From: Stappia sp. TSB10P1A | GTDB lineage: Bacteria > Pseudomonadota > Alphaproteobacteria > Rhizobiales > Stappiaceae | DNA length: 64,000 nt | Reading direction: 5' to 3' | NCBI RefSeq assembly: GCF_900185725.1 | Contig: NZ_FYAU01000018.1 | Coordinates: 62,001-126,000 of the forward strand | Part shown: in pieces, positions 53,410 to 55,550 of the stretch | Position numbering within the stretch: position 1 is the stretch's first letter | Layout of the letters: each line of letters opens with the position of its first letter | The notes under the pieces: model-generated | Told to the model about the DNA's origin: nothing | The model's database searches: none | Seen by the model: only the letters and a program-made list of their open reading frames with translations | Made by a program: the position numbers and the translations under genes

Positions 53410-53474
53410 GGCGGGAGCGCCGCACAACCGCGCCGGCCGAAAGGCCCGCGCGGGTTTTCACACTCCCGCCTTTT
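53410..53474 (+). terminator. Nested-hairpin terminator after TetR-like gene
   Basis: Outer arms GGCGGGAG (53410-53417) and CTCCCGCC (53463-53470), then TTTT; inside is a second GC-rich hairpin (CCGCGC/GCGCGG with a GGCC/GGCC pair around GAAA). The shape resembles the terminator at 10354-10425. Confidence 0.65.
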
Positions 53475-53496: not shown

Positions 53497-53859
53497 ATGA
53501 CGCAAGACCACGCGGCCGTTTCGCCGGTCCTTTCCTTTGACGATTTCCTCAAGGTCGATATCCGCGTCGGCCGCATTGTCGAGGCAGCGCCGTTTCCGCA
53601 GGCGCGCAAGCCGGCGATCAAGCTGGTGATCGATTTCGGAGCCGAGATCGGGCTCAAGAAGTCCAGCGCCCAGATCACCCGGCACTACACGCCGGAAGGC
53701 CTGATCGGCCGGCAGGTGCTGGCGGTCGTCAACTTCCCGCCGCGCCAGATCGGCCCGATGATGTCGGAAGTCCTGACGCTCGGGGTGCCCGATGCCGATG
53801 GCGAGGTCGTTCTGCTGGCGCCCGAGCAGGAGGTGCCGCTCGGCGGCCGGCTGTTCTAG
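53497..53859 (+). CDS. CsaA-like tRNA-binding protein
   Basis: A 120-residue OB-fold tRNA-binding protein: FDDFLKVDIRVGRIVEAAPF, then VNFPPRQIGPMMSEVLTLG, and a C-terminal PLGGRLF. The family includes the protein chaperone CsaA. Its stop TAG lies exactly at the left edge of the MITE-like element: TA is the target duplication and G is the first element base. An upstream TTG at 53473 is a poor start. Confidence 0.9.
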   Translation: MTQDHAAVSPVLSFDDFLKVDIRVGRIVEAAPFPQARKPAIKLVIDFGAEIGLKKSSAQITRHYTPEGLIGRQVLAVVNFPPRQIGPMMSEVLTLGVPDADGEVVLLAPEQEVPLGGRLF

Positions 53860-54122
53860 GGTCAGGACCCATTAATATGGCCGCAATGGTCGTCCTGACG
53901 TGCGCGGATACGCGAAGCAGGGCCGCAGGAAGACATAAAGTCTTTCAAGGCCTTGCGACAAAGTAGCCCGTGCAGGTCGGGACGATCCGCAGGACGTCCG
54001 ATAGACCGGCGACCTGCCGCGTCGAAACCCTTGACCGGGGGGCGACCCCGCTTCTGCGGGCTTCTCCTTGCAGGTCTTGGTCTATCGAACGCCATTGTCG
54101 TCATATGAATGGGTCCTGACCC
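53859..54122. mobile_element. 264-bp MITE-like element with TA target duplication
   Basis: Terminal inverted repeats GGGTCAGGACCCATT (53859-53873) and AATGGGTCCTGACCC (54108-54122) are perfect over 15 bp; with one mismatch they extend to 21 bp. TA flanks both sides (53857-53858 and 54123-54124). Internal arms CGATAGACC/GGTCTATCG (53999-54007 and 54079-54087) and GACCTGC/GCAGGTC add a strong hairpin, with a further CCCGC/GCGGG stem inside. No transposase is encoded; only short reading frames occur. TA duplication within CTAG is known for IS630 and for some IS5 (IS427) elements, so this is probably a non-autonomous relative of one of these. Confidence 0.85.
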
Positions 54123-54742
54123 TAGGTCGGCTCCAGACACCTCGTGGTCCAGGCATCCGCCGCCGGCTCCATGTCGAGGATGCGGGCGGGAACCCTCGCC
54201 CGGCGGAACACATAGACGGTTGCCGGCGGCAGGTTGGCCCAGATCCTGCGCGTGCGCGTGAAGGTGAGCTGGAGCTTCCCGCATATCCCGCGACGGACGG
54301 GAGAGGCAGGGCCGTAGGTGAACTGGATGAAGGCGCCGTCCGGCGCCAGCCGCGCGAACGCAGCATCCAGGATTGCCTCCTGCTCGGCAGCGGTCATCGA
54401 CAGCAGCGGCAGGCCGGAGACGACCGCGTCGAAGGGACCTCCGGCAACCCCTGCCAGTTCCTGGGCCGGCAGACGGTGCAGCACGGCTCGCGGAAAGCGG
54501 TGGGCAAGCAGGTCCGCGAAACGGGGATTGATCTCGAACAGCGTCAGGTCCTGCTCGGCGATGCCGTGGTCGACCAGGCATCGCGTGAAGACACCCGTTC
54601 CCGGGCCGAGCTCGGCAATCCGTTTCGCCCGGTGCGGCACCTGCTCGACCATCGCTTTCGCAAGGGCGCGGGAGGATGGGGCAAGGGCGGCGACCTGCCG
54701 CGGTTTGCGCAGAAACTGAAGCAAGAAGCCGTCTCGACTCAT
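54122..54742 (-). CDS. SAM-dependent methyltransferase (PmtA-like)
   Basis: A 206-residue class I methyltransferase. LRKPRQVAALAPSSRALAKAM is typical of rhizobial phospholipid N-methyltransferase PmtA and similar enzymes, followed by SAM motif ELGPGTGVFTRCL, and SGLPLLSM in the motif IV area. Substrate is uncertain; PmtA makes phosphatidylcholine from phosphatidylethanolamine. The stop TAG uses the element edge (complement of CTA at 54122-54124). ATG 54742 leaves 49 bases after the SDR gene. Confidence 0.82.
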   Translation of the reverse strand: MSRDGFLLQFLRKPRQVAALAPSSRALAKAMVEQVPHRAKRIAELGPGTGVFTRCLVDHGIAEQDLTLFEINPRFADLLAHRFPRAVLHRLPAQELAGVAGGPFDAVVSGLPLLSMTAAEQEAILDAAFARLAPDGAFIQFTYGPASPVRRGICGKLQLTFTRTRRIWANLPPATVYVFRRARVPARILDMEPAADAWTTRCLEPT

Positions 54743-54791
54743 CTGGTGCTCCCGCAGAATGGGGGTGTCCGGCGCGGTATCGGCCGGTCCG

Positions 54792-55550
54792 TCAGCGGCT
54801 CCGCAGGAGCCGATAGGCGAAGGCGGGAGAGATCCGGTGAACAATCCTCAGCAGCCGGGCCTTCTCGACCCAGATCTCCTTCCGGCCTGCCTCCACTCCA
54901 CGCAGCAGGTCGGCGGCCGCGCGTGCGGGCGGGTATTTTCGGGCGGCGGAGGGACGTGACAGGCCGGTATCGACCAGCGTCATCACGACATCGCTGACGA
55001 GGATCCGGCGGTTTGCTGCATGGCACTGGTCCCGCAAGGCACGCGTGAAGCTGCGCAGACCGGCCTTGGTGGCACAATAGACCGGGGCGTCTTTCTTGGG
55101 CGCGACGGCAAGGCCCGAGGTGACGTTGACGATGGCCGCAGACGGGTGGCGTGCCAGCAGGGGCAGGAGGGTGGTCGCCAGTTGAGCGGGAGCCACAAGG
55201 TTGACCGCGGTTTCGCGGGCGATCTCGTCGAGATAGGCGGGCGGAGCGGCGGCAAGCTGCTGATGCAGCATGATCGCGGCATTGTTGATCAGGACGCTGC
55301 AATCGGGATGGCGGGTGGCCACCCAATCGGCGAGGGCACGAACGCCCTCGGTACGGCCGAGGTCGGCCGCGAAGGCGTCGAGCCTGCCGGGATGCGCCTG
55401 GGCCAGATCGTCGAGCGGTGTGATGTCGCGCGCGGTTGCAAGGACGCAGGCGCCTCGGGCGAGCAACTGGCGCACCAGCTCCAGTCCGATGCCGCGGGAG
55501 CCGCCGGTCACGAGAACGGTGCGGGAGGCAAGGTTGAAGGGGTTTCTCAT
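54792..55550 (-). CDS. Short-chain dehydrogenase/reductase
   Basis: A 252-residue SDR of the classical type: Rossmann motif TGGSRGIGLEL, NNAAIM, and the catalytic Tyr-Lys in VYCATKAGL, with Ser in VTSGLAVA. NAD(P)H-dependent oxidoreductase of unknown substrate. Divergent from the TetR gene at 55638 across an operator-like palindrome, so it is probably repressed by that protein, together with the methyltransferase downstream. Confidence 0.88.
   Translation of the reverse strand: MRNPFNLASRTVLVTGGSRGIGLELVRQLLARGACVLATARDITPLDDLAQAHPGRLDAFAADLGRTEGVRALADWVATRHPDCSVLINNAAIMLHQQLAAAPPAYLDEIARETAVNLVAPAQLATTLLPLLARHPSAAIVNVTSGLAVAPKKDAPVYCATKAGLRSFTRALRDQCHAANRRILVSDVVMTLVDTGLSRPSAARKYPPARAAADLLRGVEAGRKEIWVEKARLLRIVHRISPAFAYRLLRSR

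Follow-up and report, generated by a model that had tools for sequence, protein, structure and literature searches.

A MITE at the stop codons of two convergent genes in Stappia: target sites, candidate partner transposases and a conserved core

The csaA–pmtA junction and its element

In the 64,000-nucleotide stretch of DNA analysed here (the window, with a GC content of 68%), two genes converge on a non-coding MITE of 264 bp, located at 53859..54122 (plus strand) by reading of the sequence and by family comparison. The plus-strand gene (53497..53859) is taken from a chosen ATG at 53497 within a mechanically listed ORF beginning at 53473, and it ends in TAG at 53857-53859. The minus-strand gene (54122..54742), with the chosen ATG at 54742 in an ORF spanning 54122-54844, ends in TAG at 54124-54122. 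The designations CsaA-like and PmtA-like are putative names given in the initial annotation; Pfam supports the domains, tRNA_bind (PF01588, E=2.9e-15) in the former and Methyltransf_25 (PF13649) in the methyltransferase.

The element is flanked by the duplicated target TA at 53857..53858 on the left and at 54123..54124 on the right. Its left terminal repeat, GGGTCAGGACCCATT, occupies 53859..53873 on the plus strand, and the right one, GGGTCAGGACCCATT as read on the minus strand, occupies 54108..54122. These ends are 15-bp perfect inverted repeats with 19 of the 20 outermost bases in agreement, and an imperfect stem continues to about 53889, so that the terminal stem reaches ~31 bp (bases 1-31 against 234-264, 87% identity in a blastn self-match). 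Between the stems lies the conserved core, for which folds and covariation suggest two self-folding arms of approximate limits, arm 1 at 53890..53985 and arm 2 at 53995..54091, separated by a small central hairpin, TCC-GCA-GGA, seen in the folds at 53986..53994 (all plus strand). The predicted fold of the whole element has an energy of -161.5 kcal/mol (z = -12.9), which was equalled by none of 200 dinucleotide shuffles; the other strand likewise folds far beyond the shuffle range (z -10.3). No ORF of at least 60 aa lies wholly within the element, while flank ORFs of the mechanical list do enter it. The length, the perfect ends, the duplicated TA and the strong internal dyads claimed initially are thus confirmed; the range given at that time, 53856-54125, corresponds to the 264-bp element plus CTA and TAG on either side.

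Both stop codons are completed by the element. The element begins with the G that completes the CsaA-like TAG, and its last C, at position 54122, supplies the final base of the PmtA-like TAG on the minus strand. Removal of the element with one TA gives ...TTCTAGGTC..., in which both genes end in a single CTAG, so the site before insertion was probably exactly CTAG. Every insertion creates a second TA next to an element whose first base is G and whose last is C; a TAG is therefore read from either side, and both window proteins are left unchanged. TAA stops at the target are also preserved, being converted to TAG. The proposal that this arrangement makes the insertion neutral proved correct and general, as G stands first and C last in all 80 TA-flanked copies of the family described below. 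For the further proposal, an insertion exactly in a CTAG shared by two convergent stops, the TAG codons at both edges of the element are plain and the ancestral CTAG is a reconstruction.

An orthologous locus without the element was found in genome G003 (locus L085), where the convergent csaA–pmtA pair overlaps by 7 bases at ...CTCAGTAG... and the stops are TGA for csaA and TAG for pmtA. The comparison consists of this single orthologous element-free pair; a contig scan for PmtA yielded two distant loci, which were left unused. Judged from the sequences, the pair supports an insertion at the window site without revealing a CTAG there. The initial annotation had anticipated an empty CTAG in an orthologue: the empty locus exists, and its junction contains no CTAG.

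A clean empty site was obtained for another family copy. In G002 (L250) this copy lies in the stop codon of an FAD-oxidase gene, and in G005 the same stop of this gene, 98% identical to that of G002 over the 240 residues compared, lies in an empty CTAG. The flanks of the two align on both sides, with a 15-base gap four bases beyond the TAG. In G003 (L255) a copy of a different terminal-repeat class occupies that same stop codon; evidently, the insertions of G002 and G003 are independent events. Among the 13 loci listed for FAD-oxidase orthologues, two carry an element and 11 do not. That the window repeat is a native intergenic inverted repeat, with no insertion behind it, is hardly credible: it would agree with the single full copy found in the window genome, but it is contradicted by the dispersed copies, the TA duplication, the element-free orthologous pair and the empty CTAG of the FAD-oxidase gene.

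Family, target choice and stop codons

Searches with the window element gave matches at E<=0.001 in 15 of 61 genomes, its own included, and several of these have full-length copies. With another family member as query, 38 of 397 genomes of the order were matched, many of the matches being short. Full-length copies are carried by two Nitratireductor plasmids and one Phyllobacterium plasmid, which may point to Nitratireductor or a near relative as the source of the window. The copies are thus dispersed across genomes, as MITE copies are, while the window genome itself holds a single full copy together with a lone end (C40:340479-340503), the remnant of a second copy. Next to this lone end (L126:2480-2504), a long ORF begins on the minus strand, aldehyde dehydrogenase-like by eye. 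The initial annotation had suggested a search of the genome and its relatives for the 15-bp ends; copies with similar ends were found in the relatives. On the chromosome of G002 (C1) the GGTCGTG end was matched 24 times forward and 26 times reverse, mostly paired at MITE spacing.

The family set was compiled from 98 sources (97 loci and the window slice), 89 of which contained an element, with 92 elements in total. The 80 elements that were counted have TA on both sides and no more than five mismatches in 16 end bases; the remaining 12 have TA on one side (8) or on neither side (4). The length is nearly fixed, at 264 bp in 51 of the 80, 263 bp in 22 and another value in 7. Since the element, once inserted into a CTAG, has this motif at both of its ends, adjacent or tandem copies are to be expected; such elements were observed at L185:679-1208, at L189:1010-1372 and at C1:2456784-2457066 of G002.

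The targets of the 80 copies are CTAG (51), CTAA (13), TTAG (10), TTAA (3), GTAA (2) and ATAA (1). The preferred target is rare in the window, where CTAG occurs 7 times; base composition would predict 186 occurrences and a Markov estimate 52. Insertions in gene-like stops were scored by a rule devised by us, which accepts an ORF of at least 80 codons ending at the site with the last 100 codons scoring at least 10 bits. By this rule 40 of the 80 copies lie in gene-like stops, including 28 of the 51 at CTAG, and the controls in the same flanks gave 23 of 72 for CTAG, 54 of 291 for YTAR and 133 of 3485 for NTAN. That stop insertions are common in the family is mostly due to the rarity of CTAG and its frequent location in stops.

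It is accordingly quite possible, though we lean against it, that the placement in stops is a matter of target choice alone, CTAG being targeted and happening to fall in stops with no need for selection. About one third of the control CTAGs are gene-like stops, and an earlier, smaller count showed no clear difference (13 of 32 copies lay in stops, as did 11 of 30 control CTAGs); those 32 copies were what remained of 41 listed after 9 without TA at one or both sides were set aside under a first boundary rule. In the larger set, by contrast, the CTAG copies exceed their controls (28/51 against 23/72, Fisher p=0.016, a rough and weak value since related copies are not all independent). This excess suggests that insertions within genes have been lost.

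Gene-like ORFs enter the elements by both faces, 19 by one and 25 by the other. When 10 of these 44 ORFs, from 7 sites, were compared with Pfam, a domain was found in 7. Four copies (those of the window, L042, L241 and L228) have gene-like stops on both sides by score. In L042, L241 and L228 a Pfam domain was found for just one ORF of each pair, so that the window is the sole double case supported on both sides.

A mobile element whose target is scarce outside stop codons, and whose ends rebuild the stop, would cost its host almost nothing. For GC-rich genomes that harbour CTAG-targeting elements, stop codons would in that case be safe sites.

Candidate transposase partners and known systems

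Full IS elements whose ends resemble those of the MITE were found in other genomes. One is L124, from a genome of the same genus (G010) that is rich in MITE copies: it is a full IS of 840 bp with MITE-like ends, TA on both sides and two overlapping frames. The frames overlap at an A/G run, where frameshifting probably joins them. Its second frame scores 151.7 bits against NCBIfam transpos_IS5_3 (cut-off 110) and the first frame alone scores 104.9, below the cut-off; the second transposase frames of L114 and L122 likewise exceed the cut-off of this model (NF033580), and L114 shows the Pfam domains DUF4096 and DDE_Tnp_1. The second frame of L124 shares 59.6% identity with a transposase annotated as ISPam4, an element that PMC3281130 assigns to IS5/IS427 with a duplication of 2 bp.

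Three further elements extend the comparison. L131 (G053), recognised as IS5-type by tblastn alone, measures 825 bp with TA on both sides; its left end, GGGTCTGGACTCATA, is of the GGGTCTG type and its right end, GGGTGAGGACCCATA, differs. The other two, likewise with TA on both sides, are longer IS5-type elements with MITE-type ends: L122:1042-3118 (G042), of 2077 bp, has extra ORFs of 186 and 141 aa before the transposase, and L114:4-1655 (G050), of 1652 bp with its right flank meeting N, has an extra ORF of 192 aa that gave no Pfam match. These extra ORFs, between the left end and the transposase, are possible cargo. The MITE and the full elements agree in their ends over ~15-18 bases.

The presumed partner has the two-frame DDE transposase of the IS5 family, and L124 and L131 combine TA on both sides with a length near 840 bp, which L122 and L114 exceed. 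Corresponding traits are described for the IS427 group (IS711 of Brucella; ISPam4 and IS1248 of Paracoccus) in the portions of PMC3281130 drawn upon, namely ~840 bp, with group lengths of 832-865 bp, two overlapping frames and TA duplication. IS711, with 842 bp and TA duplication at YTAR in the corresponding portion of PMC3163539, is also like the full elements observed here. The MITE differs from this group in having no transposase and in its core, which is unlike the full elements.

Taken together, the dispersed copies alike in ends, length and TA, the full IS5-type elements with similar ends and the orthologous locus without the element substantiate the view that the window element is MITE-like: it is short, has terminal inverted repeats and a TA duplication, carries no transposase and has its ends in common with autonomous elements. 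Very probably, it is a non-autonomous mini-transposon mobilised in trans by IS427-type transposases of the IS5 family, with stops preserved. In such a mechanism, an IS427-type transposase would bind the inverted ends of the 264-bp element and insert it into CTAG, or more loosely YTAR, with duplication of the central TA. The G...C ends would leave a TAG from both sides, so that a TAG or TAA stop whose TA is the target would remain a stop. As these GC-rich genomes avoid CTAG and roughly a third of the few CTAGs seen are stop codons, and as in-gene insertions would presumably be purged by selection, half of the surviving copies would come to lie in stops. The window CTAG would have served two convergent genes, both of which retained their stops.

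In a search of eight genomes for the L124-type transposase, the other seven were matched and the window genome was not. The window copy was presumably moved by a transposase of this type; with no match in its genome, and with one full copy and a lone end, it is either immobile there now or arrived from elsewhere. A pattern search of eight genomes, which covered the GGTCGTG class of ends, gave MITE-spaced pairs and single ends, and no full IS was recognised among them. In a named IS5 copy of Phyllobacterium (L270) no TA-flanked repeat was found by the end-finding rule used. At L119:1353-6187, in G008 of the same genus, a span of ~4.8 kb bounded by IS5-type ends contains two separate fragments of transposase, apparently an interrupted IS of the same type.

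Brucella belongs to the same order as Nitratireductor. Its palindromic intergenic repeats Bru-RS1 and Bru-RS2 are tied, as the elements are here, to a TA-duplicating IS at YTAR, according to excerpts of PMC2267715 and PMC3163539. Compared by description, they are less than half as long as the MITE (103-105 bp), and Bru-RS1 is the insertion site of IS711 (PMC2267715, PMC3163539). Bacterial MITEs in general, as presented in the passages of PMC10969869 relied upon, are likewise short and non-coding, with inverted ends, direct repeats and a stable stem-loop, and they are thought to be derived from IS elements and moved by them. They are typically AT-rich and situated in AT-rich intergenic DNA, whereas the present family occurs in GC-rich DNA; unlike the MITEs of those passages, half of its counted copies lie in stops, and its length is nearly fixed at ~264 bp with a conserved core. 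A link between TA-duplicating insertion and stops is also known from ISPsp10 of the IS427 group, for which the target TAA supplies the stop of its own transposase in the text taken from PMC4133298. There the host site gives the IS its stop, whereas the window MITE returns stops to the host genes.

A MITE moved by an IS5/IS427-type transposase is an already known kind of element. In the open PMC papers, within the portions of text accessible to searching, no description of this family was found, also by its terminal-repeat strings, nor of a stop-codon niche with statistics or of a conserved core with changing ends.

The conserved core and its changing ends

The pairing of the core was assessed in 39 copies over 101 pairs, in which 93.0% of the cells pair and 59 of the pairs change on both sides. 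The covariation score of 0.267 exceeds those of slid structures (0.047-0.075) and of shuffles (0.120), an excess that is inflated since the structure was derived from the same sequences. Such a fold raises the idea that the element is, or became, a structured RNA (a 3′-end stabiliser, a terminator or a small RNA) and was retained for that function. The wobble counts by arm are uneven, as an RNA might show, G-U : A-C in arm 1 being 23:13 for 39 copies and 41:36 for 37 elements, and in arm 2 20:41 and 12:39, respectively. Nevertheless, the folds of the two strands share 92 pairs, and these contain 79 G-U against 86 A-C cells, as is expected of a DNA palindrome, so that no transcript strand is favoured overall. 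Moreover, gene-like ORFs enter both faces in comparable numbers (19 and 25), and searches against the Rfam covariance models returned no match, either with the window stretch or with sets of 7 and 6 family loci. An RNA function is, on this evidence, quite improbable.

The arms were suspected to be inverted homologues of each other, by eye and from reverse-strand profile matches. When 37 elements were compared with a profile of arm 1, no match to arm 2 was reported, whichever orientation was taken, and the suspicion was dropped; the profile may be too insensitive a test, as just 24 of 740 shuffles were themselves reported.

In contrast to the core, which is conserved across genera, the terminal repeats vary. 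Among 37 elements chosen for diversity, the end classes were GGGTCAGGAC, GGGTCTGGAC, GGTCGTGGAC, GGGTG(T/C)GGAC, GGTCACGG/GGTGATGG and variants, with the core alignable throughout. The two ends of one element differ by 0-1 base in 18 in 29 of the 37. On a tree of the core the end classes are scattered, and one class A element stands inside a class B clade with a support of 0.994 (FastTree with mid-point root; some nodes are weak, and the class rule places some degenerate ends in class A). This scatter indicates that the ends changed more than once, whether because elements exchanged them or because they changed in parallel.

These observations bear on a simpler origin, in which the element would have arisen from an IS5-type element by internal deletion, with a core that is nothing special. 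The match of the ends to full IS elements over ~15-18 bases is what such a deletion would leave, but the family profile (nhmmer, E<=1e-6) reported none of L114, L122, L124 and L131, so that no resemblance of the core to them was seen, and one core is common to elements with different terminal repeats. We consider this origin unlikely. More tentatively, and with rather less than even confidence, we propose for the mobilised MITE that a 264-bp core was passed through the order by successive IS5/IS427 partners; both ends would have been swapped repeatedly and in step while fold and length stayed fixed, and the core would have survived in CTAG-avoiding genomes through the stops that its ends always rebuild. 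A conserved core with changing ends raises the question of what purpose a two-armed non-coding structure of nearly fixed length, 264 bp, might serve.

On a plasmid of Nitratireductor rhodophyticola, the copy at L132:3001-3264 lies between two annotated toxin-antitoxin-like pairs, with PemK/MazF on one side and RES/Xre on the other. Elements alike in shape and only weakly similar in sequence were observed in G047 (264 bp), G056 (266 bp) and G043 (276 bp), and these may belong to the family of the window element.
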